Below are positions 7,991 through 36,743 of a DNA stretch of 36,829 nt, one piece after another. How positions within the stretch are numbered: position 1 is the stretch's first letter; each line of letters opens with the position of its first letter. The position numbers and the translations under genes were made by a program. A model generated the notes under the pieces. It searched no databases, was not told the origin of the DNA, and saw nothing but the letters and a program-made list of their open reading frames with translations. This DNA is from a virus, in IMG/VR virus record IMGVR_UViG_3300048997_000351, positions 1 through 36,829 of that record. The stretch is one strand, 5' to 3'.

Positions 7991-8198
7991 CGGTGGTACC
8001 TCCACGGATCTGGTCGGCGAGCTGATCAACAGGCGGGAGCGCCTGGTCAAGAACGAGGTCAAGGAACTGGCCGATCGGCATGCGGCGCACGAGGGCGGCG
8101 AGCCGCAGCCGCCGGTCCACGGCTTCGCTGATGCGTGTGGCCAGCCGGACGTCTAGCGGCGGCACGGGTTCCCGCACGGCCTCGGCGGGCGCGGTCAC
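7980..8198 (-). CDS. Small ribbon-helix-helix-like protein
   Basis: The product has 72 residues from GTG 8198, which overlaps the previous stop. The stretch VRLATRISEAVDRRLRLAA followed by MPIGQFLDLVLDQAL has the strand-helix-helix pattern of CopG/Arc-type DNA-binding proteins. The last codons overlap the start of the DUF2637 gene by 11 bases. A role as operon regulator or relaxosome accessory protein would fit, since small RHH proteins do both on other plasmids. Which one applies cannot be told here. Confidence 0.65.
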   Translation of the reverse strand: MTAPAEAVREPVPPLDVRLATRISEAVDRRLRLAALVRRMPIGQFLDLVLDQALPPVDQLADQIRGGTTDEH

Positions 8199-21841: not shown

Positions 21842-22087
21842 TCAGCTTCGTGGCCGCGTCGCATCCCAGTCGATGAAGACCTCATCGCTGACTTCACGTA
21901 TCGAAGCCAGGTTTTCGAGCAGAGCCCTGGCGTAGCGCTGGTTTGGGACGTAGTTGCCAGGGTCGCCCAGATCGAGCTTGGCACCCGCCTTCGCGATCGC
22001 CTCTTCGCGCGTCTCCGCCACAACCGCCACTAGGCCGTACTCGCTCCCATGCTGTGTCTCAGCGCCGCTGATCCAGAGTTTCTGCAT
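21842..22087 (-). CDS. Unrecognised small protein, 81 aa
   Basis: ATG 22087 follows a strong GGGGAGG ribosome binding site. The product (MQKLWISGAETQHGSEYGLV) alternates strands and helices, with EETREEAIAKA-like helix and YVPNQRYARALLENL, and resembles small single-domain alpha/beta proteins. Its 5' end overlaps the XRE gene by 29 bases. No family recognised. Confidence 0.65.
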   Translation of the reverse strand: MQKLWISGAETQHGSEYGLVAVVAETREEAIAKAGAKLDLGDPGNYVPNQRYARALLENLASIREVSDEVFIDWDATRPRS

Positions 22088-22523
22088 CGGATCCTCCCCT
22101 CGCTTCCAGTTTCTTCAGCTCAGCCCTGGCAGTGCCTAGCTCGGCCAGTGTGTCGTCCAGCAGTACCTGCGTCTCGTGCAGCTGCTTGGTGTACTCCTCG
22201 GCCTGGCGCTCAAGCGACCGGACCTTCAGCTGCGCAGTGACCAGCCGGCCGTGCCCCACGTTGATGAGCTGCCTGAGGTCAATGCCGAGGACCTCGGCGA
22301 ACTGGACACCCTCGCCGATCGACACAATCCGGTCACCGGCCTCGATTTTGGCGATGGCGCTGCGGTGCATCCTGGTCCCGGCCGCACTCATTACGTCGGC
22401 GAGTTGCTGCTGCGTCAGCCCGGCCTGCTCCCGCAGATAGCGCAGCCGGCGCCCGAATACCTTGTCCGGAACCTCGGCTGGATCTTGGGAGCCGGGGTGA
22501 TTCCCTGTGGTGTCCTGAGACAT
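22059..22523 (-). CDS. XRE-family regulator with C-terminal coiled coil
   Basis: A classical HTH-XRE domain (RRLRYLREQAGLTQQQLADV, then MHRSAIAKIEAGDR and FAEVLGIDLRQL) occupies residues 24-90, followed by a long coiled coil (LKVRSLERQAEEYTKQLHET and onward to residue 145) likely used for dimerisation. I choose ATG 22523 because GGAGG sits five bases upstream; ATG 22535 is the alternative. It is divergent from the replication block at 22600 and probably controls it through the adjacent palindrome. Confidence 0.85.
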   Translation of the reverse strand: MSQDTTGNHPGSQDPAEVPDKVFGRRLRYLREQAGLTQQQLADVMSAAGTRMHRSAIAKIEAGDRIVSIGEGVQFAEVLGIDLRQLINVGHGRLVTAQLKVRSLERQAEEYTKQLHETQVLLDDTLAELGTARAELKKLEARGGSDAETLDQRR

Positions 22524-22546
22524 CGCGTCCTCCATTAGGACGCGAT
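22522..22546. promoter_or_regulatory. Palindrome covering the XRE gene start
   Basis: ATCGCGTCC-tccatta-GGACGCGAT has perfect 9-base arms. It includes the ribosome binding site and first bases of the XRE start codon. It may be a DNA operator for the XRE protein. As RNA it would form a hairpin holding part of the ribosome binding site. Either reading implies autoregulation. Confidence 0.65.
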
Positions 22547-22599
22547 TCTACGTTCTGATCTAGGTTGCGTCTAGTGGGTTGCTGTGATTCCATGTGCCC

Positions 22600-22875
22600 A
22601 TGCCGAACACGAAACCGCGTCCCAGACCCGAACATCAAGGGATTGAGCTCTATTCGGTGAATGAGACGGCCCGGCGCCTGGGCGGGTGCTCGGATATGCA
22701 CGTCTACCGGCTCATCGCGGCCGGGGAGCTGCAGACCGTCGACATCGCCACGCCCGGCGCCGGGCGTCCCAAGACGCGCATCCGCAGCGACGACCTGGCC
22801 GCCTACATCGAGCGCAACACCCGCAAGACGGCCGGGAAAGGCACTAGCCCAGGCGGGAGCGCCGATGCCGCCTGA
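22600..22875 (+). CDS. Excisionase/MerR-type HTH protein
   Basis: The 91-residue product has IELYSVNETARRLGGCSDMH, then VYRLIAAGELQTVDI and a basic wing (RPKTRIRSDDLAAYIERN), the pattern of the DNA-binding domain shared by excisionases and MerR-like proteins. The start is ATG 22600 or GTG 22594; no clear ribosome binding site is seen. It opens the replication operon. No integrase exists in the window, so a role in replication or regulation is more likely than excision. Confidence 0.75.
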   Translation: MPNTKPRPRPEHQGIELYSVNETARRLGGCSDMHVYRLIAAGELQTVDIATPGAGRPKTRIRSDDLAAYIERNTRKTAGKGTSPGGSADAA

Positions 22876-23182
22876 CAAAAAAATGGGGCGCCGCCCGGCG
22901 AAGACGACGCACCCGAAGATCACACCAGCTGCAGCCATCATAACCGTCCCGACCGGCAGCACCCGGCGGTCACGGCCTGTCGCGTCCGCGAGCCTGTATC
23001 ACCCGGTACCCGGCCGCACGCTGTTCTCGCTCTCGATCCGCTGCCCGTACTGCCAGGGAACGCACCTCGGCCGGGTCCGCGAGGAACGTCAGGCAGCCGG
23101 CAGGCGCCGCGTTCCGTGCGGGCCTGTGCAGGTCGTTGTCCGGCGCGTCTACCGGCCGGTCAGCGCCGGGCTGGCTGCGTGA
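22865..23182 (+). CDS. Small basic zinc-ribbon-like protein, 105 aa
   Basis: ATG 22865 lies inside the end of the HTH gene (11-base overlap). The product starts MPPDKKMGRRPAKTTHPKI and is basic throughout. It contains CPYCQGTH near residue 60 and a further Cys (VPCGPV) that could complete a treble-clef or half ribbon. The stop overlaps the GTG of the primase-polymerase gene. It is probably a nucleic-acid-binding accessory of the replication block; not recognised as a family. Confidence 0.65.
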   Translation: MPPDKKMGRRPAKTTHPKITPAAAIITVPTGSTRRSRPVASASLYHPVPGRTLFSLSIRCPYCQGTHLGRVREERQAAGRRRVPCGPVQVVVRRVYRPVSAGLAA

Positions 23183-24066
23183 GCGCGGTGCTCGCCGCCG
23201 CGCGAGCCTACATCGGCCGTGGCTGGCCCCCGTTCGTCCTGTCGGCGGGCAAGATTCCCGTGGCCAACTGCGACCCGTGCCGCAGGCAGCACGTGACCGC
23301 TAAGCAGATGGAGGCCTGCACATGCCTGTCGTGCCACGGGTTCTACGCGGCCACGATGGACGCCGGCCGGGCGGCCGAGATGATCCGCCGCTACCCGCGC
23401 GGCCTGCTCGCCATCCGCACCGGAGCGCCCTCGGGAACGGTGGTCATCGACGTCGACGCGCCGCACGGCCTGCCGACCATGCGCGCCCTGATGGATGCGG
23501 GGGAGCTGCCCCGGACGCTGGCCCAGCGAACCGGCTCCGGCGGTTACCACCTGGTCTATGCGCACCCGGGCGTGCGGATCCCGTCCGTGCCCGGGAAGGG
23601 TGGCGTCGGCGTCGACATCAAGGCCGATGGCGGATACATCGTGGCAGCCCCAAGCCTGCATCCCCGAACGCGCAAGCCCTACGAGTGGCGGGCCGACATC
23701 CGCCAGGCACTCACGGCGCTGCCGGAGGTCTGGACTGAACGCCTCCGCGAGCCGGAACGGCCGACACGGGCCACCGTCACCCGGCTGCCCGACCTCGGCC
23801 GGGCAGGACGGTATGCCGATGCCGCACTGCGCGGCGAGGTTCAGCACGTGCTCGACTCGCCGGAGGACGGCCACAACCACGCGCTGTTCACCGCGGCGCT
23901 CAAGGTCGGCAGCCTGGTCGCCGCCGGGGCACTGGACGAGGTCACCGCGGCCGAGGCACTCGCCGTGGCCGCGCAGCAGGTCGGCCAGAAGCCGGGCGAG
24001 ACGCGCCGCACGATCGCGTCGGGGTTCCGTGCTGGCGCGACCTCGCCACGTCAGGGGGCCGCGTGA
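23179..24066 (+). CDS. Replication primase-polymerase (AEP), untagged
   Basis: The protein has 295 residues from GTG 23179. AEP motifs are GWPPFVLSAGKIP (15-27), VVIDVDAP (88-95), GSGGYHLVY (119-127) and DGGYIVAAPS (150-159). A cysteine-rich insertion (C31, C34, C47, C49, C52) probably binds zinc. The C-terminal helical part (DSPEDGHNHALFTAAL) is typical of the family. It is coupled by GTGA to the SF3 helicase, forming a standard plasmid or phage replication pair. Unlike the transfer-operon homologue at 3773 it has no EAG tail (ends RQGAA). Confidence 0.9.
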   Translation: MSAVLAAARAYIGRGWPPFVLSAGKIPVANCDPCRRQHVTAKQMEACTCLSCHGFYAATMDAGRAAEMIRRYPRGLLAIRTGAPSGTVVIDVDAPHGLPTMRALMDAGELPRTLAQRTGSGGYHLVYAHPGVRIPSVPGKGGVGVDIKADGGYIVAAPSLHPRTRKPYEWRADIRQALTALPEVWTERLREPERPTRATVTRLPDLGRAGRYADAALRGEVQHVLDSPEDGHNHALFTAALKVGSLVAAGALDEVTAAEALAVAAQQVGQKPGETRRTIASGFRAGATSPRQGAA

Positions 24067-25523
24067 GCGACGTCGACGGCACCAGCGCGCTCGTGCGTGA
24101 GTTGCGGCGGCCGCTGCGCGACCACGACCCTGACTCCGGGATTCCGCGCACCCAGGACGACTGGGGTCGGCGGTTCGCCCAGGCCGTCAAGGACATGCGC
24201 CACATCCACGGCCTCGGCTGGCACGGGTGGGATCAGACGCGCTGGCGGCACGACGACACCGGGCAGGCCGCGCGCATCATGTCCGACCTGATCCACGACG
24301 GCTACGCCGAGCTCGCCGAGCTGACGAGCGACGCTGCGATCAAGGTGGCGGTGCGCGACCTCGTCTCCATGCGCAAAGCGGCCAGCGTCAACGGGGCGCT
24401 GTACCTCGCCTCGGTGCGGCCAGAGATGGCCGTGGCCGCCCGCGAGATCGACGCGCGGCCGAACCTGCTCAACGTGCCCAACGGCACGCTGGACCTGGAC
24501 ACGCTCGAGCTGCGCAGGCACGACCGTGACGACCTGCTGACCAAGGTCTGCCAGGGCGCGTATGACCGGGCCATCGGCGAGACGCGGTGGTCGCGGTTCG
24601 TGGCTGAGATCCTGCCCGACGAGGACGTGCGCGCGTTCGTGCAGCGGCTCATGGGGGTCGCCGCCTACGGCCGCGTCATCGAGCACGTCCTCGCAGTCAT
24701 GTGGGGGCGCGGCCGGAACGGTAAGTCAACGTTTATTGAAGCCGTCCTGCACGCCCTCGGTGACTACGGGCTGCAGGCAGACTCCAAGCTGCTCCTGTCC
24801 GGCGCGAACGAGAGGCACTCCACCGAGCGCGCCGACCTGCAGGGCAGGCGATTCGCAGTGTGCATGGAAACCGCCAAGGGCAGCCGGCTCGACGCGCCCA
24901 TGGCGAAGATGCTGACCGGCGGCGACACGATCACGGCGCGCCGGATGCGCAAGGACAACATCAGTTTCGAGCCGTCGCACACCGTCGCGCTGATCACCAA
25001 CTACAAGCCCATGATCTCCGGCGACGATGATGCGCTGTGGAAGCGGGTTGTGCTGATCCCGTTCACCGAGAGATTCCTCGGCACCGAAGCCGACAAGAAC
25101 CTGCTCGACACGCTCAAGGCCGAGGCCGCGGCGGTCATCACGTGGATGGTCGAAGGCTGGCAGCAGTACCGGCAGACCGGGCTTGCACCGCCCGAGAGCG
25201 TGCTCGCGGCAACCAGCGCCTACCGGGACGAGTCCGACGCGCTCGGGCAGTTCATTGCCCAGCGGTGCCACCTGGCCACCTCGGCGTACGCCCGGCAGCA
25301 GCCAGGAGATGGATCACAGGTGCTCTACCAGGCCTGGACGTCCTGGTGTCACTACAACGGGGAGAGTCCCGGCAGCAACAAGGAACTGACCGAACAGCTC
25401 ATCGACCGGGGCTGGCAGAAGGCGAAGACGAACACCGGAGCGAAGTGGCTCGGCGTAACCCTGCTCACCGATGCCCAGGAAGACAAAACGGCTGGTCAGG
25501 CGACTAGCGGTGATGGGTGGTGA
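24063..25523 (+). CDS. D5-type SF3 helicase (phage/plasmid primase family)
   Basis: The 486-residue protein has the D5 N-terminal region (LLNVPNGTLDLDTLELR) and an SF3 helicase. Walker A is GRGRNGKST (215-223), Walker B AVCMETAKG (265-273) and motif C TVALITNYKP (307-316) with the sensor asparagine. The arginine-finger region is ALWKRVVLIPF. It belongs to the P4/D5 class that unwinds origins as a hexamer. GTG 24063 overlaps the primase-polymerase stop. The 3' end of the gene carries the first half of an inverted iteron cluster, a possible origin. Confidence 0.92.
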   Translation: MSDVDGTSALVRELRRPLRDHDPDSGIPRTQDDWGRRFAQAVKDMRHIHGLGWHGWDQTRWRHDDTGQAARIMSDLIHDGYAELAELTSDAAIKVAVRDLVSMRKAASVNGALYLASVRPEMAVAAREIDARPNLLNVPNGTLDLDTLELRRHDRDDLLTKVCQGAYDRAIGETRWSRFVAEILPDEDVRAFVQRLMGVAAYGRVIEHVLAVMWGRGRNGKSTFIEAVLHALGDYGLQADSKLLLSGANERHSTERADLQGRRFAVCMETAKGSRLDAPMAKMLTGGDTITARRMRKDNISFEPSHTVALITNYKPMISGDDDALWKRVVLIPFTERFLGTEADKNLLDTLKAEAAAVITWMVEGWQQYRQTGLAPPESVLAATSAYRDESDALGQFIAQRCHLATSAYARQQPGDGSQVLYQAWTSWCHYNGESPGSNKELTEQLIDRGWQKAKTNTGAKWLGVTLLTDAQEDKTAGQATSGDGW

Positions 25524-25641: not shown

Positions 25642-26406
25642 ATGCAGATCAAGTCTCGCCAGCGCCGCGCTGGCCAGCCAGCCGCCGGGCAGGACAGTGC
25701 GACTACCACGAACCCCGGCGAGAGCACTGCCCGCCCGCAGCTGGTACCGCCCCCGGCTGGCCGTTACATCACCATCAGCACCGAGCGGGTAAGCCAGGAT
25801 CGGCTGCAGCACAACTGGGTCGGGCCGCCAACGCCCGGGACCATCACCCGCTACCGCGGTGTCCTTCATTTGCACCGCGGTGGCCAGGAGCAGGTGATCC
25901 GCTGCAGTCACCGCGCGCACCCGCTGCGGCCACCGTCCCTGGTGCACAAGACCGAGGCCGATGCGTTCGCATGCGCCCAGCGCTTGCGCGTCAGCGACTA
26001 CCGGGCGTGGCCGCTCTACGAGCCCGTCCTTCGGTGCCCCACCTGCGGTTCAACGACGCCAGTGGCCCAGACTCCCCGCGAAGCACCGGCCACGCCGTAC
26101 GCGGAGCTCACCGCCCGGCCGCACGACGAGCCCACCACCGTCCTGGGCGCCGATGACGAGCCTGAGCAGGCCGTCGTCCGGCGGTACGTCGGCGGGTTCA
26201 CCGTTCACTACCCGGACGGCAGCGAAACCACCGGCGAATGCGCCCACCAGCAGCCGGGCCGAGCCGTGCCGCTATACCTGCACGGCTCGCAAGAAGATGC
26301 ACTCAGGTGCGCCCGAACCCTGCTCACCACCCGGCACGGCCGCATCGAGATCCGTGAGCACCAGCCAAAAACGCCAGCGGACCAGACTCCCGGCGCTGCC
26401 GCATGA
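25642..26406 (+). CDS. Duplicated-domain protein, 254 aa
   Basis: After a disordered N-terminus (1-38) the protein contains two related units of about 55 residues. One is RYRGVLHLHRGGQEQVIRCS and onward to DAFACAQRL; the other is RRYVGGFTVHYPDGSETTGE and onward to DALRCARTLL. A CPTCGS zinc half-site lies between them. Each unit looks like a short beta sheet with a helix. A third, closer copy is the next gene. No known family was recognised. It starts the operon leading into the packaging genes. Confidence 0.7.
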   Translation: MQIKSRQRRAGQPAAGQDSATTTNPGESTARPQLVPPPAGRYITISTERVSQDRLQHNWVGPPTPGTITRYRGVLHLHRGGQEQVIRCSHRAHPLRPPSLVHKTEADAFACAQRLRVSDYRAWPLYEPVLRCPTCGSTTPVAQTPREAPATPYAELTARPHDEPTTVLGADDEPEQAVVRRYVGGFTVHYPDGSETTGECAHQQPGRAVPLYLHGSQEDALRCARTLLTTRHGRIEIREHQPKTPADQTPGAAA

Positions 26407-26732
26407 CCGGCAGCGCGGAGCCGGCCGGAGCACCGGCCGCACCATACGCCGAGCTCAGCGCCCAGGCGCACGACATGACAGACATCATCGTCCAGCCGTT
26501 CGGCGATGTGGCCCGGCACATCACCCGGCGGTTCATCGGCCGCTTCACCATCCACCGGCCGGACGGCAGCGAGTCCACCGAGGAGTGCATGCACGTGCGG
26601 TCCGGCATCGGCGTGGTGCGGCTGTTCCCGCACCAGACCGTAGACGAAGCACTCGCCTGCGCCCGCATCCTGCTCGCCGACCGGTACGACGGCATCGAGA
26701 TCCGCGAGCCCAGCGCGGCCGGACCACAGTGA
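26403..26732 (+). CDS. Paralogue of the preceding protein's C-terminal half, 109 aa
   Basis: ATG 26403 overlaps the previous stop. The whole protein lines up with the last 115 residues of its neighbour: APAAPYAELSAQ against APATPYAELTAR, FTIHRPDGSESTEEC against FTVHYPDGSETTGEC, and DGIEIRE against GRIEIRE. This is a tandem duplication at gene level. Function unknown. Confidence 0.75.
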   Translation: MTGSAEPAGAPAAPYAELSAQAHDMTDIIVQPFGDVARHITRRFIGRFTIHRPDGSESTEECMHVRSGIGVVRLFPHQTVDEALACARILLADRYDGIEIREPSAAGPQ

Positions 26733-26745
26733 CGGGAGCGGCCCA

Positions 26746-27006
26746 GTGCCCACCATCGGCGACCTGCTGGACGACGACGACCGACAGCGCCTGCGCGAGC
26801 TCCACGGCCGGCCCGCCAGGCCCAAGCCCGAGCCACAACCACGACCGCGGCGGCCCTCACGAGACCGGCGCAGGCACTCCCCGCAGGCTATGGGTGCGAT
26901 CGCAGCGATCGCCCGCGCGACCGGGCAGCACCAGGACCAGGACGGCGGCGGTCAGGCAGCCATCACCGGCAGCGACCACACGCAGCGCGGTCGGCAAGCA
27001 GGGTAG
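26746..27006 (+). CDS. Small basic protein, 86 aa
   Basis: GTG 26746 has GGGAG seven bases upstream. The product opens MPTIGDLLDDDDRQRLRELH, then becomes a Pro/Arg-rich, probably disordered basic region (PKPEPQPRPRRPSRDRRRHS) and a helix with AIAAIARATGQ. It may bind nucleic acid. About 100 bases separate it from the terminase small-subunit gene; they hold a possible promoter but nothing distinct. Confidence 0.6.
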   Translation: MPTIGDLLDDDDRQRLRELHGRPARPKPEPQPRPRRPSRDRRRHSPQAMGAIAAIARATGQHQDQDGGGQAAITGSDHTQRGRQAG

Positions 27007-27109: not shown

Positions 27110-27349
27110 ATGAAGGTTAAGACTGGCGTTACCCGGCTGCTGAAGCGCCTTCCGGCGGGCGGTCCCGAGCACGATGCGCTCGCGGCGCTCGCGACCACGC
27201 TGGCTGAGGCGCTGGATGGCGACCCTCCGGCGACCGCGACGCCGAATCTGGCCCGGGAGCTGCGCGCGACGATCGCCGCGCTGACCGCGTCGCCGGACGA
27301 GGCCGCCGATCCCGAGGTGGAGGAGCTGCTTCGCGATGTCCGCCGCTAG
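27110..27349 (+). CDS. Probable terminase small subunit, 79 aa
   Basis: I take ATG 27110 (MKVKTGVTRLLKRLP) because GGAGG lies seven bases upstream; ATG 27092 is in frame but weaker. The small helical protein has NLARELRATIAALTASPDEA, a pattern seen in short genes directly before terminase large subunits of actinophages. Its last codons overlap the start of the terminase ATPase by 14 bases. The assignment rests mainly on this position. Confidence 0.55.
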   Translation: MKVKTGVTRLLKRLPAGGPEHDALAALATTLAEALDGDPPATATPNLARELRATIAALTASPDEAADPEVEELLRDVRR

Positions 27350-28220
27350 GTATGCGACCCCGGCCAGTGACCGACCGAACCTTGCGGGGGCGGTCGGCCG
27401 CGTTGCGGAGGCTCTGGGCATGCCGCTGATGCCGTGGCAGCGGCAGGTGCTTGAGGTGGGCACCGAGCTGGAGGCCGAAAAGCTGGCCTACCGCCAGGTC
27501 ACCACGCTGGTACCAAGGCAGAGCGGGAAGAGCAGCTTGACCTGCTCGCTGATGGTCGGCGCGGCGCTGGCCCGGCCGCGGACGCGGGTTGTCTACGCGG
27601 CGCAGACGCGGCTGGACGCGCGCAAGAAGCTGGTGGACGACTGGATGCCGCTGATCGGCGCGTCCCGGCTGGCGCCGCTGGTGACGCCGCGGCGCGGGTT
27701 CGGCACCGAGGCGCTGCTGTTCGCCAACGGCAGCCGCATCGAGCTGGTGTCCGGGACGCGGGTGTCCGGCCACGGCGCGACCCTGGACTTGGCCGTGGTC
27801 GACGAGGCGTGGGCCCAGGTGGACGACCGGCTTGAGCAGGCGCTGCGCCCGGCGATGATCACCCGCCCGGATCCGCAGTTCTGGATCATCAGTACGGCCG
27901 GCGATGACACGAGCACGTGGCTGCGACAGAAGGTCGACGCCGGGCGCCTGGCGGTGCAGCTGGGGGCCGCGGAGGCCGCCGCCTACTTCGAATGGTCGGC
28001 GGCGGAGGGTTCGGACCCGTCCGACCCGGCGACCTGGCACGGATGCATGCCCGCACTCGGCCACACGGTACCGGAGGCGGCCATCCGGGCCGATCTGGAG
28101 CTGATGAGGCCGCCGGAGTTTCAGCGGGCCTACTTGAACTGGTGGCCTGGGGACACCGCGGGCGGCTGGGAGGTCTTCAGCCAGCAGGCATGGGAGCGGG
28201 CCGGTGGGGATTTCCGGTGA
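27336..28220 (+). CDS. Terminase large subunit, ATPase part
   Basis: The packaging ATPase motifs are clear: adenine-binding QRQ near residue 36, Walker A VPRQSGKS (59-66), Walker B LAVVDEA (152-158) with catalytic Glu, and the coupling motif IISTAGDD. Typical large subunits have 450-550 residues with an RNase H-like nuclease behind the ATPase. This ORF stops at 294 residues, just where the nuclease should begin. The nuclease is found in the next ORF, behind an HNH domain and in the +1 frame. ATP-driven packaging of DNA into a capsid is the known role. Confidence 0.9.
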   Translation: MSAARYATPASDRPNLAGAVGRVAEALGMPLMPWQRQVLEVGTELEAEKLAYRQVTTLVPRQSGKSSLTCSLMVGAALARPRTRVVYAAQTRLDARKKLVDDWMPLIGASRLAPLVTPRRGFGTEALLFANGSRIELVSGTRVSGHGATLDLAVVDEAWAQVDDRLEQALRPAMITRPDPQFWIISTAGDDTSTWLRQKVDAGRLAVQLGAAEAAAYFEWSAAEGSDPSDPATWHGCMPALGHTVPEAAIRADLELMRPPEFQRAYLNWWPGDTAGGWEVFSQQAWERAGGDFR

Positions 28221-28965
28221 TCACCAGGCGGTGCGGCGGGCTCTGGTCGCCGCGATGGAACCGGGACAGCCGTGCGCCCGCTGCGGCCGCCCGCTACTGC
28301 CCGGCCAGCCGGTTGACCTGGATCACCTGGTGCCCAGGTCGGCTGGCGGCGAGGGCCCGCGGGCACTGTCCCACGCCAGCTGCAACCGCAGGCATGGTGC
28401 CCGGCTTGGTAACGCTGCCCGCCGGAGGCAGAAGCAAGGGAGGCGCAGGAAGATGATCAGGCTTACGGTCGGCGTGGAGATCTACGCGGACCGCTCAAAA
28501 ACGGCGATCGTCCTGGCCGGGATACCCGAGCCGGGCGTGGGCGACATCGAGTTGCTGCCCCTGGTCGACGGCGCCGACGCCGTACCGGCCGTGGCCGAGC
28601 TGGCCGTCCGGTGCGAGATCGACGCCGTGGCCGTAGACCCGCGGTCCAACGCGGCGACCCTGGTTGAGCCGCTGCGGCGGGCCGGCCTCCCGGTCAAGGA
28701 ACCGGACGCCCGTGACATGGCCGTCGCGCACGGGCGGTTCGCTGACTTGATGACCGCCGGCAAGCTCAGACATCACAACCAGCCGGAGATGACGGCCGCG
28801 GTGCGGTTCGCGCAGGCACGCAAGCTGGCCGGGGCTGCGGCACTGGAGAGGTACGGGACCAGCGCCGACGCGGCTCCGGCCGTCGCCGCCGAGCTGGCGA
28901 TCTGGGCCCTGGGCGATCTGAGCAAGCCGAGCGGCGAGGGTCCGTTCGTGTTGTTCGGCCGGTGA
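28204..28965 (+). CDS. HNH endonuclease fused to terminase nuclease domain
   Basis: GTG 28204 has GGGAG seven bases upstream and overlaps the ATPase stop by 17 bases. Residues 20-70 form an HNH nuclease: CARCGRP, VDLDHLVPRSAGGEG, and SHASCNRRHG. After a basic linker, residues 86-253 match the RNase H-like nuclease of terminase large subunits: VGVEIYADRS, VAVDPRSNAATLVE, DMAVAHGRFADLMTAGKL, and SADAAPAVAAELAIWAL. An internal ATG at 28453, with GGAGG upstream, could give the nuclease alone. HNH proteins beside terminases assist cos cleavage in several phages; an insertion between the two terminase domains is unusual. Confidence 0.8.
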   Translation: MGISGDHQAVRRALVAAMEPGQPCARCGRPLLPGQPVDLDHLVPRSAGGEGPRALSHASCNRRHGARLGNAARRRQKQGRRRKMIRLTVGVEIYADRSKTAIVLAGIPEPGVGDIELLPLVDGADAVPAVAELAVRCEIDAVAVDPRSNAATLVEPLRRAGLPVKEPDARDMAVAHGRFADLMTAGKLRHHNQPEMTAAVRFAQARKLAGAAALERYGTSADAAPAVAAELAIWALGDLSKPSGEGPFVLFGR

Positions 28966-28969
28966 TCAG

Positions 28970-29119
28970 TTGACCGAGGACCAGGGCAGCGGAGCACCGC
29001 AGGAGCCAGATGGCGAGAGTGCCTTGCCCACAGACGACGACCTGGCCCGGCTGTTTTTCCACCCGTGCCAACACCACGACCCGCCGACGATTTCGTGCCC
29101 GCACTCGCGGGATTGGTGA
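28970..29119 (+). CDS. Small Cys/His protein, 49 aa (tentative)
   Basis: A TTG at 28970 opens a 49-residue frame, MTEDQGSGAPQE..., acidic at first and ending FHPCQHHDPPTISCPHSRDW, with Cys/His spacing that could bind zinc. The stop overlaps a GTG of the peptidase gene. No good ribosome binding site is seen. It is supported only by filling the gap between two tightly packed genes. Confidence 0.4.
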   Translation: MTEDQGSGAPQEPDGESALPTDDDLARLFFHPCQHHDPPTISCPHSRDW

Positions 29120-29130
29120 AAGGAGGTGCC

Positions 29131-29790
29131 TTGAGCGCCGACGAGATTTGGAAAACCGCGCTGCATGAGGGCGGGCACGGCTACATGGCGTGGCGTACCG
29201 GGCGGCGGGTCGGAGCGGTCACCGTCGTGCCCAGGGGCCAGTCGGCCGGGGCGACGGACTGCGGGTCGCTGCGGATGCGATGGCGTGAGTTTGACCGGCT
29301 CGACCGGTCGGCGCCGGTGGCGAGCTGGCCCGCCTCCATACGCAGGCTGTACGACATCGTGGCGATGTGCACGGCGGCGGGCCAGCTCGCCGAGGATCTG
29401 TTCTTTTGGCCGGGCCGCACCGGCCGCACCGGTGATCCGGTGATCATGCGGGCCACCGAGCTGGCTGAGGCCACCGTTGCCGAGACCCCCCCGGCGGCCG
29501 CGCCGCGCAACGCTGGCCGCCCGGCAGAGTTGCGGCCGACCCGCGCGGAAGCCGCGAAGCTGGCCGCAGCGGACACGCAGAGCGACGCCGCCGCGCTGGC
29601 CTGGTGGGCTGCCGACATGTTTCCAGGCCAGATGGGCCGCCAGATGGCGTGGCTGGGCCACATCGAAGCGGAAACCCGGGCGTGCCTGAGTACAGCCGAA
29701 GGCCCGGTGCTGCGCCTGGCTCGCGCGTTGCGGGAGTACGGCACGCTGTCCGGCAACGCGGTTCGGGCGGTCCTGGATGCCGACCGCTGA
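29131..29790 (+). CDS. AAA-less FtsH-type (M41-like) zinc metallopeptidase 1
   Basis: TTG 29131 follows AAGGAGG; GTG 29116 is an alternative. The active site is HEGGH (residues 12-16), with the GQLAEDLFFWPGRTGRTGDP segment (83-103) and MRATELAEAT. These correspond to the FtsH peptidase pattern HEAGHA ... AE ... tGa.nDl..AT.iA, so D102 is the likely third zinc ligand. FtsH proteases carry an AAA ATPase before this domain; here it is absent, leaving a 219-residue peptidase. In phages a small protease usually matures the capsid; whether this one acts so is unknown, since no capsid gene is present. Confidence 0.8.
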   Translation: MSADEIWKTALHEGGHGYMAWRTGRRVGAVTVVPRGQSAGATDCGSLRMRWREFDRLDRSAPVASWPASIRRLYDIVAMCTAAGQLAEDLFFWPGRTGRTGDPVIMRATELAEATVAETPPAAAPRNAGRPAELRPTRAEAAKLAAADTQSDAAALAWWAADMFPGQMGRQMAWLGHIEAETRACLSTAEGPVLRLARALREYGTLSGNAVRAVLDADR

Positions 29791-30379
29791 CGACGCGGAG
29801 CACTCGCCCCCAGGTGCCGTCGCCGCCCACGAGGCCGGACATGCGGCTATGGCCGCCTACTTCGGCTTCACCCGCCGCGGCCCGGTGTCGCTGGAGCCTC
29901 CGGTTTGCTTTGCCGGCTGGCATCCGCGGACGCCGCCGCCGGGTGAGCTGGAGGGCCTGACCGAACCCGGCCCGGTGCTACCGGCCCGGATCCGGCGCTA
30001 TGTCGAGGCCACCGTCATGGTCCTGCTGGCCGGTGACGTCGCCGAAGGTATCTGCTACTGGGCCGCCGGGCCCGGCGAGGGCATCGAGGACCCGCCGTGG
30101 CGGCAGGCACCGGCCCTTCCGCCGTGGGAGCGGGCATGGCTGGCTGAGCACGGTGGCGGCGAAGACGATGTGCACCGGATCCGGGGACTGCTGCAGCAGA
30201 TGCACGGCCCGGACTCGGCGGTGGCGGGCGCGCACGAGCTGTACCTGCGGGCCGAGACCCGGCACCTGGTCCGGCGGCCCCGTTTCCGCCGGCAGGTCTG
30301 TGCCCTGGCCACCGAACTGCTGGCCTGCGGCACCCTGCCCGCGTCCCGCTGGCGAGCGGTCCTGGCGAGTGCTCAATGA
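29777..30379 (+). CDS. AAA-less FtsH-type (M41-like) zinc metallopeptidase 2
   Basis: ATG 29777 overlaps the previous gene by 14 bases. The 200-residue protein has HEAGH (18-22), LLAGDVAEGICYW (83-95) and GGGEDDVHRIRGLL (126-139), again in FtsH-peptidase order with D130 or D131 as candidate third ligand. It has only modest similarity to its neighbour beyond these motifs. Two adjacent stand-alone M41-like domains could form a heteromeric protease. There is no membrane segment or ATPase domain. Confidence 0.78.
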   Translation: MPTADDAEHSPPGAVAAHEAGHAAMAAYFGFTRRGPVSLEPPVCFAGWHPRTPPPGELEGLTEPGPVLPARIRRYVEATVMVLLAGDVAEGICYWAAGPGEGIEDPPWRQAPALPPWERAWLAEHGGGEDDVHRIRGLLQQMHGPDSAVAGAHELYLRAETRHLVRRPRFRRQVCALATELLACGTLPASRWRAVLASAQ

Positions 30380-30825
30380 TCCTGCTCGAGGTGACCCTGC
30401 CGACTCGTGCGCACCTGTACCGGGCGATCACCGCGCACATCCGCCAGTTGCGCCGCGATGGCGTGGCGGTGCCGCCCGAACTGGCTGCGCTGACGGCGGC
30501 ACTCGGGTCAGGAACGGTCAGCAGTGGCCAGGGCTGGCCGCCGGTCGCCGAAGTTGAGGTTCCCCGCGAGTGTGACCCCTACGTGGTTTCCGTCCGCGAG
30601 GCGAGCCGCCGGCTGGCCGTGTCAGAGCGGACAGTCCGGCGGCTCACCGCGACGGGTGAACTGCCGTCGCAGAAGATCGCCGGTCGGCGGGTCTATCCCG
30701 TCGACGCCCTGGAGCGGTACTTGGAGGTGGCCAGCCCTGACCAGCCAAGCCGAGCGCGATCGCCTGGTCGCCCAGATCAGAAGCCGTCAGCTGGTCCAGC
30801 GGCACCGACTGGTGGAGAAGGTTGA
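30376..30825 (+). CDS. Excisionase-type HTH protein, 149 aa
   Basis: The ATG at 30376 overlaps the peptidase stop. Residues 68-117 carry the HTH-17/excisionase pattern: VVSVREASRRLAVSERTVRR, then LTATGELPSQKIAGRRVYP and LERYLE. An N-terminal helix pair (LYRAITAHIRQLRRDG) precedes it and a Pro-rich tail follows. It may regulate the packaging operon. It is the second protein of this type in the window. Confidence 0.75.
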   Translation: MILLEVTLPTRAHLYRAITAHIRQLRRDGVAVPPELAALTAALGSGTVSSGQGWPPVAEVEVPRECDPYVVSVREASRRLAVSERTVRRLTATGELPSQKIAGRRVYPVDALERYLEVASPDQPSRARSPGRPDQKPSAGPAAPTGGEG

Positions 30826-31207
30826 GGCCCGCCAGGAAGAGGCGGCGCGGCGGCGGCTGGCGGAGCGCCGGGCGAAGGTGGCGTCTGCCTGGGAAGACCC
30901 GGCCGTGGACGTTCATGAGGCCCAGGCCCGGGCGTTTGCGGCGGTCGCGGAGGCCACACTCGAGCAGAACGGCGCCGAGGATGACCATGAGTCCGCTTGC
31001 GAGTGGATCCAGGACCTCCGCGCCGACGTGACCCGGGCCAGGCATGGCCGTTCGCGGACACCGTCCGCCGAGGGTGCCGCTGAGCTTCGGGCTGCGGAGG
31101 AGGCCGAGCGGCGGGCGTCCCTTCGGCTCCGGACGGCCCGCGAGCGGACCCGCCGGGCCCAGGAAGAGCTCGATGACCTGATGGACCCGTCCCGCGTGAC
31201 CTGGTGA
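30737..31207 (+). CDS. Charged coiled-coil protein (start uncertain)
   Basis: The frame encodes a long helical, Arg/Glu-rich protein (AERRAKVASAWEDPAVDVHE, then ERRASLRLRTARERTRRAQE) ending DLMDPSRVTW. No ATG exists near the 5' end. CTG 30737 with GGAGG nine bases upstream would give 156 residues, GTG 30812 would give 131. The first part overlaps the HTH gene. A scaffold, head-morphogenesis or tail-chaperone-like role would be a guess; I make no assignment. Confidence 0.55.
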   Translation: MTSQAERDRLVAQIRSRQLVQRHRLVEKVEARQEEAARRRLAERRAKVASAWEDPAVDVHEAQARAFAAVAEATLEQNGAEDDHESACEWIQDLRADVTRARHGRSRTPSAEGAAELRAAEEAERRASLRLRTARERTRRAQEELDDLMDPSRVTW

Positions 31208-31214
31208 GGCCCGG

Positions 31215-31520
31215 ATGGGACGCCGCTCGCATCGCCGCAAGCCCCGGCAGGCTGCCAGCCGGGTCAGTCCCACCACCAGCCTGCCGGTTACAACCCGCGC
31301 CCGGCCGCCTGCGGCCACCGCGCCGCTGCCGTATGACGCCGCCGAGGGGGCAGCCCGCCAGCTGGTCGCTGCGGCGGCCCTCGATGACGGCGGGGCCCGG
31401 CTCGGCGAACTGGCCGGGCAAACCGCGCTGGACTGGCGGCTGTCCGGGACGACCATGGCGACACTGGCCAACGCGGTCCGGTCCCTAGCCAATGAGCTCG
31501 CCGAGCGAGCGGCCGAGTGA
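31215..31520 (+). CDS. Small protein before the tape-measure gene, 101 aa
   Basis: ATG 31215 has GAGG five bases upstream. The product is basic at the N-terminus (MGRRSHRRKPRQAASRV), with an Ala-rich helical C-terminal half (AARQLVAAAALDDGGARLGE). Its stop overlaps the GTG start of the tape-measure gene. Position would suit a tail assembly chaperone, but it has no slippery frameshift arrangement that I can see and no recognisable homology. Confidence 0.6.
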   Translation: MGRRSHRRKPRQAASRVSPTTSLPVTTRARPPAATAPLPYDAAEGAARQLVAAAALDDGGARLGELAGQTALDWRLSGTTMATLANAVRSLANELAERAAE

Positions 31521-34500
31521 GCACCGCCACCGTCATCTACAACCTGGTCGGGCGCGATTCCGCCTCATCCGCATTCAACAAGGTGGGCTCGTCGGCGGGG
31601 CGGCTGGAGAAGACGGTCGGCCGGCTTGGCAAGGCCGTTGCCGTCGCCGGTGCCGCAGTCGTCGGCTCGGCCGCGGCGATCGCCGGGGAGAGCATCAAGG
31701 CCGCGGTCTCTTTCCAGGCCAGCATGGAGAAGATCAAAACCCAGGCCGGGGCGTCGCAAAAGGACGTGGACTCGCTCACGAAGTCCGTGCTGAAGATGGC
31801 CCCCGCCACCGAGCAGGGGCCGCAGCAGCTCAGCGAAGCCCTCTACCACCTGAAGTCGATCGGCCTGGACAACGCCGACGCGATGAACGCGCTCAAGACC
31901 GCCTCTGACTTGGCAGCGGTCGGCGGCGCGAACCTCGAGGACACCACGAACGCGCTCGGCGGTGCGTGGCGCAGCGGCATCAAGGGTGCCCAGTCGTTCG
32001 GCCAGACCGCTGCCACGGTGAACGCGATCATCGGCGCCGGCAACATGCGCATGGAGGATTTCACCGCCGCTATTGGGACCGGCATCCTGCCCGCGGCGAA
32101 AACCTTCGGGGTGAGCCTCCAGAGCATGGGTGCCGCGCTCGCGCTCATGACTGACGAAGGCGTACCGGCCGAGGACGCGGCGACCCGGCTGAAGATGTCC
32201 CTGTCGCTGCTCGGGGCACCGTCGATGCAAGCGCAGAAGCAGCTCAAGACGATCGGCCTGACCGGGCTGCAGCTCGCCGACGCGATGCGCGGCCCGCAAG
32301 GGCTCATCGGGGCCATCTCGCTGCTGAAGTCCCATCTGGACGCGAGCGGCCTGTCCGCCTCGCAGCAGGCGGCGCTGCTGTCGCGGGCGTTTGGCGGCGG
32401 CCGGTCCAGCTCGGCGATCCTGACCATGATCAACAACCTGGACGTGCTGCGCAAGAAGCAAGACCAGATCAACACCACCACCGGCAGGTACGGCGGCGCG
32501 GTCGCCGCGCAGCGGAAGACCGCCCAGGCCCAGTTCGACCTGCTCAAGTCGAGCCTGGACACGCTGGGCATCCGGCTCGGGCTGGACCTGCTCCCGCCGG
32601 TCACGAAGTTCACGCACTGGCTGTCCACGACCGGGATCACCGAGGTCAGCAAGTTCACCACCAAGGTCCGGTCGATCATCCCGGTCTCCGCGATCGAGCA
32701 GGACGTCAAGAAGGCCGAGCAGTGGGTCAAGAACCTGTTCGGCATGGGCGGGGAGAAGGCCCCGAAGATCACACCCCGGATCGACCTGAGCAACGAGGGC
32801 CTGTTCACGAAGACGGCGACGCTCAAGGTCAAGCCGCAGGTCGACATCCAGAACGAGGGCCTGTTCACCCACACGCCAGTTCTGAAGACCACACCGCAGA
32901 TCGACCTGCAGAACGAGGGGATCTTCACCAAGACGGCCCCGGCCGCGAGCAAGAACGCCGGGAAGTCCATCGGGGCAATGCTCAAAAACGTCGACTGGGG
33001 CAGCATCGTCGCCGACGCGATCGACTCGGCGGTGAGCGCGGCCGGGAAGATCGGCGCCGCGTTCGGCAAGCTGCTCGGCAAGATCAACTGGCTGCAGGTC
33101 GGCAAAGAGGCCGCGTTCGTCCTGGTGCCGCTGGCGGTCGGGCTGGTCAACAACCTGGTCACCGCGCTGATCATGGAGACGATCCACCACCCGCTCGACA
33201 TGCTGCTGTTTGTCGCGTCCCTGTTCCCGATCGGCAAGCTGGCCGACGCCGCGATCTGGATCTTCAAGGACATCCCGCTCATCGGGCCGATCGTGGAGGC
33301 ACTGCTCAAACCGCTGAGCAAGGCCGGTGACCTGGTCGGCAAGGGTTTCGGCAAGATCCTGAAGAAGATCTTCGGCCCGGTCGGCGACCGGATCGGCGCG
33401 GCGGTCGGGGATGCCCGTAACTGGCTGCTCGGCAAGGGTGAAGAGGCCCTGCTCGGAATGGCCCGCGGGCTCGGTATCGGCTGGCGGTTCGCGGTCCGCT
33501 GGCTGGGCAAACTCGGCGACCTGGTGACCGCGCCGTTCGCCAAGGCCGGATCCTGGCTGCTCGGCAAGGGCCGCGACATCCTCGACGGGCTGCTGTCTGG
33601 GCTGCGGTGGGTGTGGAACAAAGGCGTATCGCCGTGGCTCGGCAAGATCGGCGGCTGGATCGGCGGCCTGTTCAGCAAGGCCGGTTCCTGGCTGGCCAAA
33701 GCAGGTCAGTGGATCATCGACGGGCTGCTGAACGGCTTGCGGTGGGTCTGGAACAAGGCCCTGTGGCCCTGGCTGGGCAAGATCGGCGGATGGGTGACCG
33801 GCCTGTTCTCCAAAGCCGGGTCGTGGCTGTCGCGGGCTGGTCAGTGGATCATCGACGGGCTGCTGAACGGCTTGCGGTGGGTCTGGAACAAGGCCCTGTG
33901 GCCGTGGCTGGGCAGAATCCCCGGCTGGATCGGCGGCCTGTTCAGCAAGGCCGGGTCGTGGCTGTGGAATCACGGCTGGGACCTGATCCAGGGCCTCTAC
34001 AACGGGATCAAGAACCGGATAAAAAACGTCGGCTCCTGGGTCAAGAACAACATCGTCAACCCGTTCATCAAATGGATCAAGCACCACTTCGGCATCAAGT
34101 CGCCGTCGACCGTGATGCACGGAATCGGCGTCCAGATGATCGCCGGCTTCCTGCGCGGCATCCTCATGAGCGACCCGCTCGACTCGCTGAAGTCCATCTT
34201 CGGTGGGCTGCCGCAGGCCCTGGGCGGCATGATCGAGCACGGCCTGATCTCCGCAGCGAAACTGCCCGGCAAGGCGATCTCCGCGCTGAAGTCGCTGGGC
34301 TCGACGGCCCTGTCGGCGATCGGCTCGGCCCTGTCCGGGGTCAAGGGCCTCGGCTCGGACGTGCTGGGCCTATTCGGTCTCGGAGGCGGTGGTGGCGGTT
34401 ACTCGGCAGTGCCGGCCAAGTCGGGGTCGGCCGCAGCGGCGCAGCGGTTCGCCGCCGCCCACCTGGCCCAGTTCGGGTGGGGCCAGAATCAGATGGCCTC

Positions 34501-34960
34501 GCTGATCCCGCTGTGGAACCAGGAGTCCGGCTGGAACGCCAACGCGGTCAACCCGTCCTCAGGCGCGTATGGCATCCCCCAGTCGCTCGGCCACGGCCAC
34601 CCCTACAACTTGGGCGACTACGCCAACCAGGTGCTGTGGGGCCTGTCCTACATCAAGGGCCGCTACGGCAGCCCGGCTGCGGCGTGGGCGCATGAGGAGG
34701 CGTTCAACTGGTACGCCAAGGGCCTCCCCGGGCAGATCTTCAGCACCCCCACCCTGATCGGTGTCGGTGATGGCACGCGGCCGGAGAAGGTGACCGTCAC
34801 CCCGCTCGGAGCCAATTACGGCGGCGGCGATGGGGCCGCGGCACCGCTGATCGGCACGGTGAACATCAGTCCGCAGGAGGGCCCCACCGTCGACGAGGCG
34901 ATGGGTGCGCTGCTGTTCACGATGCGCCGGGCCCGCCAGGCCGGATTCCCCCGGAGGTGA
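31517..34960 (+). CDS. Phage tail tape-measure protein with lytic transglycosylase domain
   Basis: The protein has 1147 residues from GTG 31517. The N-terminal part (about 45-330) is a TP901-type tape-measure core (FQASMEKIKTQAGASQKDVD; FTAAIGTGILPAAKTFGVSL). Three 20-residue repeats follow (about 415-475, consensus xITPxIDLxNEGLFTKT), then hydrophobic segments. Four 45-residue Trp-rich repeats span 676-855. Near residues 970-1070 is an SLT/lysozyme-like domain (WNQESGWNANAVNPSSGAYG then IPQ) with the catalytic Glu. Tape measures set tail length, and their muramidase opens cell walls during DNA entry. No tail tube, portal or capsid gene accompanies it. Confidence 0.9.
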   Translation: MSTATVIYNLVGRDSASSAFNKVGSSAGRLEKTVGRLGKAVAVAGAAVVGSAAAIAGESIKAAVSFQASMEKIKTQAGASQKDVDSLTKSVLKMAPATEQGPQQLSEALYHLKSIGLDNADAMNALKTASDLAAVGGANLEDTTNALGGAWRSGIKGAQSFGQTAATVNAIIGAGNMRMEDFTAAIGTGILPAAKTFGVSLQSMGAALALMTDEGVPAEDAATRLKMSLSLLGAPSMQAQKQLKTIGLTGLQLADAMRGPQGLIGAISLLKSHLDASGLSASQQAALLSRAFGGGRSSSAILTMINNLDVLRKKQDQINTTTGRYGGAVAAQRKTAQAQFDLLKSSLDTLGIRLGLDLLPPVTKFTHWLSTTGITEVSKFTTKVRSIIPVSAIEQDVKKAEQWVKNLFGMGGEKAPKITPRIDLSNEGLFTKTATLKVKPQVDIQNEGLFTHTPVLKTTPQIDLQNEGIFTKTAPAASKNAGKSIGAMLKNVDWGSIVADAIDSAVSAAGKIGAAFGKLLGKINWLQVGKEAAFVLVPLAVGLVNNLVTALIMETIHHPLDMLLFVASLFPIGKLADAAIWIFKDIPLIGPIVEALLKPLSKAGDLVGKGFGKILKKIFGPVGDRIGAAVGDARNWLLGKGEEALLGMARGLGIGWRFAVRWLGKLGDLVTAPFAKAGSWLLGKGRDILDGLLSGLRWVWNKGVSPWLGKIGGWIGGLFSKAGSWLAKAGQWIIDGLLNGLRWVWNKALWPWLGKIGGWVTGLFSKAGSWLSRAGQWIIDGLLNGLRWVWNKALWPWLGRIPGWIGGLFSKAGSWLWNHGWDLIQGLYNGIKNRIKNVGSWVKNNIVNPFIKWIKHHFGIKSPSTVMHGIGVQMIAGFLRGILMSDPLDSLKSIFGGLPQALGGMIEHGLISAAKLPGKAISALKSLGSTALSAIGSALSGVKGLGSDVLGLFGLGGGGGGYSAVPAKSGSAAAAQRFAAAHLAQFGWGQNQMASLIPLWNQESGWNANAVNPSSGAYGIPQSLGHGHPYNLGDYANQVLWGLSYIKGRYGSPAAAWAHEEAFNWYAKGLPGQIFSTPTLIGVGDGTRPEKVTVTPLGANYGGGDGAAAPLIGTVNISPQEGPTVDEAMGALLFTMRRARQAGFPRR
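33542..34081 (+). repeat. Four tandem 135-bp units inside the tape-measure gene
   Basis: Units begin at 33542, 33677, 33812 and 33947, each encoding 45 residues starting KAGSWL and containing WIIDGLLNGLRWVWNKALWP or variants. Units 2 and 3 are almost identical in DNA, so the expansion looks recent. The fourth unit is diverged. Confidence 0.85.
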
Positions 34961-35924: not shown

Positions 35925-36121
35925 GATCCCGCCTCCTTGCTGTTATCGGCTTCCCGTTCGCGCTGGAAGCCGACGCAGTATGTTCCCTGCCGGGCTTCGG
36001 CGGCCCGTTCGCCGGGGGTGGGCTGGACGAGGCCGAAGTTCCGGCCGAGGTCGTGGAGGATGCCGCGCCAGCCGGTGGGCAGGTCCTTGATGACGCCGCA
36101 ATCTGCGTGCTGCTGAGTCAC
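35921..36121 (-). CDS. Small tagged protein, 66 aa (paralogue of the junction gene)
   Basis: GTG 36121 overlaps the previous stop. The first 34 residues (MTQQHADCGVIKDLPTGWRG and onward to VQPT) are nearly identical to the gene at 1-104. After VQPT the two diverge completely: here PGERAAEARQGTYCVGFQRE and an EAGS end, there a short EAGE tail. This shows that tagged proteins exchange or lose their C-terminal parts while keeping an EAG end. It has two or three Cys but no clear domain. Confidence 0.72.
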   Translation of the reverse strand: MTQQHADCGVIKDLPTGWRGILHDLGRNFGLVQPTPGERAAEARQGTYCVGFQREREADNSKEAGS

Positions 36122-36561
36122 TGTCCTGCCTCTAACCCGCGGTCGGCCTGCTGCGGTGCCTGTTCGGCGGTGGTCTCCCGGTCGCCGTAGTTGATCAAGT
36201 GAACGTTGTGGCCAACCGCGCTCTTCTGCACGTTGATCTGGCCGCCGCCGGTGTTCACTATCAGCGGGCCCTGGTGATTATCGGCGCTGGGCTGGCGGTC
36301 GCCCGCGTCGCCGCGGCCGCGGCCACCATGCCCGCCCGCCTCGCCCGCGGCCACGTTGCGGACTTCGGTGCCGTGCCCGAAGGCCTGGCCGCTGATGCTG
36401 ATGTCCTCGGCGCCGGTGTGGGTGATGCCTCCGGTCTGCGGTTGGCTGGCCCGCGCTTGCTTTTCGGCATTGTGCTCATCAAGCCACCGCTGGGCTTCCT
36501 GCTCCCGTTCCTGGCGCTCGGTCTCGCGCGCTTCTTCGCGGCCGCGGCCGAACAGCCTCAT
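36018..36561. repeat. Second copy of a tandem duplication (first copy 1-562)
   Basis: Bases 1-562 and 36018-36561 are highly similar and collinear apart from an 18-base deletion in this copy. Across the circular junction the two copies lie 812 bases apart, so this is a tandem duplication within the tagged-gene operon rather than terminal repeats of a linear molecule. Single-base differences scattered along it show that it is not an assembly overlap. Confidence 0.8.
36118..36561 (-). CDS. Tagged protein with Gly/Asn-rich RHIM-like segment (copy 2)
   Basis: The 147-residue near-duplicate of 101-562 starts at ATG 36561 with MRLFGRGREEARETERQERE. It lacks six residues in the linker after NAEKQARA but keeps the whole ITHTGAEDISISGQAFGHG segment, the IVNTGGGQINVQ/AVGHNVHLINYG segment and the GLEAGQ end. 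Conservation is strongest in the Gly/Asn-rich parts and weakest near the N-terminus, suggesting that the former matter. Function unknown. Confidence 0.75.
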   Translation of the reverse strand: MRLFGRGREEARETERQEREQEAQRWLDEHNAEKQARASQPQTGGITHTGAEDISISGQAFGHGTEVRNVAAGEAGGHGGRGRGDAGDRQPSADNHQGPLIVNTGGGQINVQKSAVGHNVHLINYGDRETTAEQAPQQADRGLEAGQ

Positions 36562-36743
36562 TCGCCAGCCTCCGGCCCGCCCTGCTCGGCCTGGTGGCCG
36601 CGCTGGCGGTCTTCATGTGCGAGCACGGCCTCGCTGGACAGCAGGCACCGGCTGTCGGCGATCTCCTGGTCGAGCGCCGTAGCTTCGACCTGGCCTTGGC
36701 GGTCGGCGTGGAAGTCCTCAATCTGCTGCTGGACGTTCTGCAT
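36558..36743 (-). CDS. Small tagged protein, 61 aa
   Basis: ATG 36743 has AAGGG ten bases upstream. The product, MQNVQQQIEDFHADRQGQVE and onward, is Gln/Asp/Glu-rich and helical with one Cys, and ends GHQAEQGGPEAGE. GAA TGA overlaps the ATG of the next gene. It takes the position held by the remnant at 559-624 in the other copy of the duplicated block. Not recognised beyond its tail. Confidence 0.65.
   Translation of the reverse strand: MQNVQQQIEDFHADRQGQVEATALDQEIADSRCLLSSEAVLAHEDRQRGHQAEQGGPEAGE

Follow-up and report, generated by a model that had tools for sequence, protein, structure and literature searches.

An intact phage packaging set and an orphan tape measure gene on a predicted MOBF plasmid

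Overview of the packaging and tape measure operon

The window analysed here is the whole of the metagenomic IMG/VR record IMGVR_UViG_3300048997_000351 (36,829 bases), in which no tRNA gene and no Rfam match was found. On its plus strand lies an operon of phage-type genes, annotated as follows.

27110-27349, plus strand: 79-aa small ORF, candidate small terminase (TerS), overlapping the large terminase gene (TerL) by 14 nt (ELRxT motif, position)
27336-28220, plus strand: TerL ATPase chain (phrog_9, E=2.8e-41; PF03354)
28204-28965, plus strand: HNH domain fused to the TerL nuclease chain (phrog_1808, phrog_9, nuclease alignment)
29065-29790, plus strand: zinc peptidase-like protein (HEGGH), M41-like (PF01434, E=3.2e-7)
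29777-30379, plus strand: second HExxH protein (HEAGH), no family (sequence motif only)
30376-30825, plus strand: HTH_17/excisionase-like DNA-binding protein (PF12728, E=9.3e-11; phrog_66; weaker match to phrog_57, TerS)
30755-31207, plus strand: all-helical coiled-coil protein, start uncertain (AlphaFold2 pLDDT 78, four helices)
31215-31520, plus strand: 101-aa ORF, no family; its stop overlaps the start of the next gene (GTGA) (sequence, profiles)
31517-34960, plus strand: orphan tape measure protein (TMP) with a C-terminal transglycosylase/lysozyme-like domain (PF10145, phrog_1533, phrog_12661)

The genes from TerL to the TMP are mostly coupled stop to start. The sequence-only reading had called them tightly overlapped, which holds for most gene pairs but not across the 100-nt gap between 28965 and 29065. 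Of the two peptidases that it had counted, the first (29065-29790) is supported by PF01434, but the second (29777-30379) has only its HEAGH motif and no family match. Relatives of the M41-like protein were found in no plasmids, phages or viral contigs, and one weak match within a longer frame came from a phylum sample. Further upstream, 25642-26406 and its neighbour 26403-26732 share repeat units of about 90 nucleotides with 71-73% DNA identity and belong to no known family.

A large terminase in two genes

The ATPase chain has intact Walker A (PRQSGKSS), Walker B (LAVVDEA) and motif III (STAG) sequences and is about 45-56% identical to those of the closer phages with a split TerL; one comparison with split-TerL phages gave identities of up to 54%. 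In the protein encoded at 28204-28965, the HNH domain occupies residues 5-80 (phrog_1808) and the TerL nuclease domain residues 86-240; the phrog_9 match of residues 121-239 falls on profile positions 548-666, and in relatives both TerL halves align in order. A terminase and an HNH protein had been read as separate genes; profiles support both, but they are one TerL split over two genes, with the HNH domain fused to the nuclease chain. The 79-aa ORF that precedes the ATPase gene has no profile match, and its ELRxT motif recurs in 37 of 81 relatives, in a small ORF immediately ahead of TerL.

When viral contigs were scanned with the nuclease-chain alignment and only loci with both halves detected were counted (n=81), the ATPase and nuclease ORFs were separate in 81/81 comparable loci; on these alignments the split is therefore clade-wide. 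A two-ORF TerL has already been described for Arthrobacter cluster AY phages (PMC12820723). The split loci (L006-L206) form a large soil phage clade in which TerL consists of two proteins. The first acidic position of the nuclease is E in 36 split proteins, A in 30, Q in three and D in none, versus D in 14 and E in four single-chain proteins, and the histidine of the AVAHG motif, present in 69/69 split proteins and in the window, is absent from single-chain proteins. The window nuclease carries the residues of the split clade: glutamate at the first acidic position, the invariant histidine and a conserved aspartate.

An HNH domain of the same type was found in 16 of the 81 split loci, always upstream of the ATPase gene, and fusion to the nuclease chain was seen only in the window among the loci examined. 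In one Actinacidiphila prophage that encodes a related TMP, an HNH with 56% identity directly precedes TerL. The gap between the TerL halves, where the HNH lies in the window, contains a DNA methyltransferase-like ORF (TDPPYG motif) in L136 and L162. A recent break of TerL by the HNH acting as a homing endonuclease is disfavoured because the relatives are all split at the same linker, and also because other genes, such as this methyltransferase, occupy the gap. With an HNH domain on the nuclease chain, this naturally split TerL would offer a testable case of division of labour in the packaging motor.

The tape measure protein and the origin of the cassette

The 1147-residue tape measure with a transglycosylase that had been recognised from the sequence agrees with the profiles: PhageMin_Tail (E=1.7e-18), phrog_1533 (E=1.2e-37) and the transglycosylase family phrog_12661 (E=2.3e-19). 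The muralytic domain keeps its conserved Glu and Gly. Close relatives among viral contigs, 58-59% identical over the full length, are encoded by L086 and L087, which are normal phages. At the DNA level, the TMP gene of another contig, L092, is 80% identical to that of the window in its N-terminal part and 92% identical over the last 300 bases; tail assembly chaperones normally accompany a TMP, and L092 has chaperone-like ORFs upstream of its TMP gene as in a normal phage. The homology of L092 and other phages to the window begins and ends at the edges of the TMP gene, the GC content of which is moderately below that of the neighbouring genes. The dN/dS ratios of the TMP and TerL relative to phages reflect mainly divergence before capture and do not decide function.

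In the four phages with a related TMP for which a TerL was found, this TerL is single-chain and only 25-30% identical to that of the window. Conversely, none of 18 longer split-TerL contigs has the N-terminal part of this TMP, and several share its C-terminal domain. Because the TMP phages have a single-chain TerL and the split-TerL contigs lack the TMP N-terminal part, TerL and the TMP are judged to come from different phage lineages. No type of helper that fits both proteins was found among the phages examined, and no second instance of the cassette was found in related plasmids or contigs. Other plasmids with TMP matches that were inspected, pAmyja1 and pS1D4-14.2, carry portal, capsid or tail-tube genes. 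Derivation from a single decaying prophage was rejected because the sources of TerL and the TMP differ and the genes are intact (the ATPase motifs of TerL are complete and the TMP is full length), in line with the sequence-only reading, which had described the genes as intact and unlike a decaying prophage.

Absence of recognisable virion genes

Searches of the operon and the other main ORFs of the record with PHROGs and Pfam profiles found no portal, capsid, connector, tail tube, tail chaperone or receptor-binding gene, and for the genes of no family the matches listed up to E=10 included no head or tail family (26746-27006 had one meaningless match at 0.26). As positive controls, two phages that carry a TMP related to that of the window were searched with the same profile library, which detected in L087 a portal, a capsid-protease fusion, a connector, a tail chaperone and minor tail genes; in L091 it detected a major tail protein. 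The earlier failure to find portal, capsid, connector, tail tube or receptor-binding genes is thereby borne out. Structure prediction for capsid or portal folds was uninformative for 25642-26406 (AlphaFold pLDDT 36); the predicted all-helical fold of 30755-31207 had no significant match to viral folds, in what is a weak test.

As in a phage satellite, packaging genes (TerL, HNH) and a TMP are present without a whole virion. The portal, capsid and head-tail connectors that a capsid-forming PICI would encode had no profile match in either the operon or the record's other main ORFs; instead of the integrase and chromosomal attachment of a PICI, the record has the ParA of a plasmid, with no integrase match among the scanned ORFs; and it departs from a phage-plasmid, defined by complete virion genes, in its absence of head, connector, tube and chaperone genes. 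Nothing in the record was recognised as a capsid-size or helper-interference gene, nor was a cos or pac site identified.

Plasmid backbone

The remainder of the record encodes transfer, replication, partition and regulatory proteins.

3773-4924, minus strand: second primase-polymerase (PrimPol), C-terminus EAGQ (PF09250, E=2e-34)
5277-6959, minus strand: TraG/VirD4-like coupling protein (PF12696, E=2.2e-14)
6956-8062, minus strand: DUF2637-like membrane protein adjoining the coupling protein (PF10935, weak, E=0.024; same position in related plasmids)
8561-9460, plus strand: GntR/UTRA regulator, KorA-like (PF07702, PF00392)
10416-14801, minus strand: MOBF relaxase (TrwC) with TraI-type helicase (1461 aa; PF08751, E=5.2e-35, and AAA_30, E=3.1e-44, within one protein; PF13604; mobF plasmid relatives)
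19150-19872, plus strand: ParA partition ATPase (phrog_164, E=4.5e-28)
22059-22535, minus strand: XRE-type repressor-like regulator, divergent from the replication and packaging operon (HTH_31/HTH_3, phage repressor profiles)
22594-22875, plus strand: excisionase/AlpA-like HTH protein, first in the plus-strand cluster (phrog_66, E=8e-7)
23116-24066, plus strand: PrimPol (PF09250, E=3.7e-32)
24063-25523, plus strand: P4-family primase/D5 helicase (PF08706, E=2.4e-25; plasmid relatives)

WhiB is also encoded (Pfam), and a cytidine/deoxycytidylate deaminase-like protein (9406-9960, PF00383, E=4.5e-21) lies beside the GntR regulator. Genes for autonomous replication and partition are present (ParA, PrimPol and the P4-type primase); neither VirB4 nor any other gene for the body of a type IV secretion system (T4SS) was detected among the scanned ORFs of this record, which may be incomplete. 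No relatives of the relaxase, the coupling protein or the D5 helicase were confirmed in viral contigs. Judged by its gene content, the replicon is otherwise an ordinary mobilizable MOBF plasmid of actinomycetes, and the primase/helicase at 24063-25523 is annotated as a replication gene of the ordinary type found in Streptomyces plasmids. A PICI-like layout (divergent repressor, AlpA-like HTH, PrimPol, D5 helicase, packaging) was considered and set aside because the module of HTH, PrimPol and P4 primase is ordinary in Streptomyces plasmids.

The plasmids of S. tendae (NZ_CP043961), S. longwoodensis (NZ_CP108979) and NBC_01102 (NZ_CP108658), and pA387, are circles of 28-35 kb with the same kind of MobF relaxase-helicase and a TraG-like coupling protein or FtsK-type protein. 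The 35-kb circles of S. tendae and S. longwoodensis share the arrangement of DUF2637, coupling protein and MobF, and the NBC_01102 plasmid shares MobF, GntR, PrimPol, P4-family primase and ParA with the window. Unlike the window, none of the four has an annotated terminase or tape measure gene; VirB4 is not annotated either in those of S. tendae and S. longwoodensis or in pA387.

A C-terminal EAGx, directly followed by the stop codon, is found in eighteen minus-strand reading frames that are mostly unrelated to each other, those of the relaxase and one PrimPol among them (minus-strand positions 115, 573, 643, 860, 1155, 1813, 1938, 2231, 2503, 2904, 3787, 10430, 17566, 35717, 35935, 36132, 36572 and 36798). 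No plus-strand frame has this ending, nor do the coupling protein and the DUF2637-like protein. Among ORFs of at least 40 codons it occurs in 17 of 321 here versus 3 of 2689 in the related plasmids and phages used as controls. The third codon positions of Ala and Gly vary freely, which points to selection on the protein. The GAG codon may double as the ribosome-binding site of an overlapping downstream start in about ten frames; of those that lack such a start, five have GAA in its place while retaining EAG in the protein. We can only guess at its role: EAGx may mark proteins at their C-terminus for passage through the T4SS coupling protein, or may be a tag that affects stability.

Ends of the record

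Both ends of the record sit inside an array of related small minus-strand genes, and positions 1-578 are 91% identical to 36018-36595; a near-duplicate gene is found at either end (101-562 and 36118-36561) among small tagged genes. Joining 36829|1 keeps a minus-strand frame open and creates a gene of about 50 codons, the start of which (VTQQHADCGVI[E/K]DLPTGWRGILHDLGR) resembles that of the gene following 36118-36561, and the C-terminus of which, GGPEAGE, is the same type of tag as in the gene next to 36118-36561. Because the ends join in frame into a small gene, the record is suggested to be a complete circle. The sequence-only reading had taken the replicon to be apparently complete, and the join supports this but falls short of proof, a matching frame being expected by chance about one time in three.

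Possible roles of the operon

From its annotation, the plus-strand operon is an intact phage packaging set with an orphan TMP and no recognisable particle-building gene, on a MOBF plasmid, and the plasmid may travel in particles made by another virus. Mobilizable plasmids and phage satellites have mostly been treated as separate hitchhikers with different helpers, and the combination of a relaxase with a whole terminase but no virion would make this plasmid a candidate hitchhiker of both kinds of helper. We tentatively favour, at somewhat less than even confidence, a hitchhiker with two routes, which would have conjugation genes as well as a packaging enzyme of its own and would borrow virions while contributing its own TMP. 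The relaxase and coupling protein would let the plasmid be mobilized by conjugation; upon phage infection, its terminase would recognise plasmid DNA and pump it into procapsids made by the phage, and the tails borrowed from the phage would incorporate the plasmid TMP, which would set tail length and provide an ejected muralytic domain. The full version of this proposal, a plasmid that conjugates, packages itself into helper capsids by means of a two-chain HNH-terminase and swaps in its own TMP, is considered unlikely as a whole; if true, it would be a new type of satellite, one that takes its heads from a helper and modifies the tails rather than producing heads itself.

The hitchhiker with two routes is favoured because TerL retains intact ATPase motifs together with the nuclease residues of the split clade; because the components of the packaging enzyme (HNH, small ORF, ATPase, nuclease) are all together; because the HNH is related to packaging HNHs that relatives encode about 1 kb ahead of TerL and to the one beside TerL in the Actinacidiphila prophage; because the TMP is full length with the conserved Glu and Gly of its muralytic domain; because the genes from TerL to the TMP are mostly coupled; because head genes are absent although the control phage L087 shows them; and because the backbone matches mobilizable plasmids. 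It is also favoured by the precedent of known satellites that encode TerL and HNH themselves and borrow other parts (PMC10690885). It is weakened because the window is a single instance with no related plasmid or contig that has the cassette, because tail assembly chaperones are absent, and because no capsid-size or helper-interference gene, integrase or cos/pac site was recognised. The main difficulty for a simple single helper is that TerL and the TMP have two sources. We know of no satellite with a lone TMP; such a satellite would exploit borrowed tails in a new way. The sequence-only reading is supported in that the cassette is capsid-less, intact and not a single decaying prophage, and the element may be the satellite that it proposed, but not a typical one, being a mobilizable plasmid of the MOBF type.

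Passive capture is nearly as likely as a hitchhiker with two routes, though likewise doubtful: the packaging genes and the TMP would have been acquired from two phages by recombination as recent, intact cargo with no role in transfer. The two different phage sources are what such recombination would leave, as are the confinement of TMP similarity to L092 and other phages within the gene edges, with 92% nucleotide identity in the last 300 bases, the normal-phage tail chaperones upstream of the L092 TMP, and the moderately lower GC content of the TMP gene; the region downstream of the replication genes would be a plausible accessory site. The main point against mere debris is that a complete packaging set has been kept together, in frame and mostly coupled to its neighbours, and in addition the HNH is fused rather than truncated and a TMP gene of 3.4 kb would be an expensive neutral load. 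Less probable is that the record is incomplete or chimeric, with particle genes on unassembled DNA or with phage and plasmid wrongly joined. It is one metagenomic record without a replicate, it ends in a repeated gene array (1-578 and 36018-36595) and no second copy of the cassette was found; however, the 36829|1 join gives an in-frame small gene with a shared start and C-terminal EAG tag, the head genes would normally lie between TerL and the TMP in a stretch that is contiguous here, and the TMP homology ends at gene boundaries, the TMP start overlapping the preceding stop.

It is quite improbable that TerL and/or the TMP are expressed as decoys which disrupt particle assembly by infecting phages and thereby shield the host of the plasmid. 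Satellites and prophages do block tail assembly through Tai systems (PMC11364771), which provide a precedent, and orphan structural proteins could conceivably poison assembly, but no defence profile matched among the operon genes tested, and a decoy would need neither an intact two-chain terminase with HNH nor a 1147-aa muralytic TMP. Least likely, and by our estimate very improbable, is a use outside the virion, in which the plasmid would be transferred through a cell wall opened by the muralytic TMP, with the TerL motor serving in the same apparatus. Although VirB4 or another T4SS body gene was not found among the scanned ORFs and the TMP has a transglycosylase-like domain, the plasmids of S. 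tendae and S. longwoodensis and pA387 have neither an annotated VirB4 nor a TMP, so that none is needed for the backbone, and TerL keeps the residues of its packaging clade. The TMP in wall penetration had been raised as an alternative from the sequence; its sole point in favour is the muralytic domain, but the related MOBF plasmids without annotated VirB4 have no TMP. Here the TMP is without chaperones and tube, and we know of no TMP in that state that forms a channel.

Comparison with known systems

The window can be compared with three further kinds of known element. Phages with a two-ORF TerL (Arthrobacter cluster AY and many soil IMG/VR contigs) have separate ATPase and nuclease genes as in the window; unlike the window they carry head genes (in L007, ORFs resembling portal and capsid genes follow TerL), and where they have the HNH upstream of TerL, the window has it fused to the nuclease chain. 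The phage-plasmids pFP3 (Streptomyces F2), the NBC_01335 plasmid and pAmyja1 have a related TerL and/or TMP on a plasmid, and pFP3 also has ParA, GntR, WhiB, DUF2637 and FtsK; these three differ from the window in having portal, capsid and/or tail genes, and a MobF relaxase is not annotated in the parts of them that were seen. Capsid-forming PICIs and the Streptomyces satellites MulchRoom and MiniFlayer (PMC10690885) are helper-dependent elements with a small and large terminase and HNH, but they encode a portal and capsid and borrow tails or replication, whereas the window has a TMP and no head gene on a conjugation-type plasmid. On this comparison the window would resemble capsid-forming PICIs, MulchRoom and MiniFlayer in reverse, for those elements make heads and mostly borrow tails.
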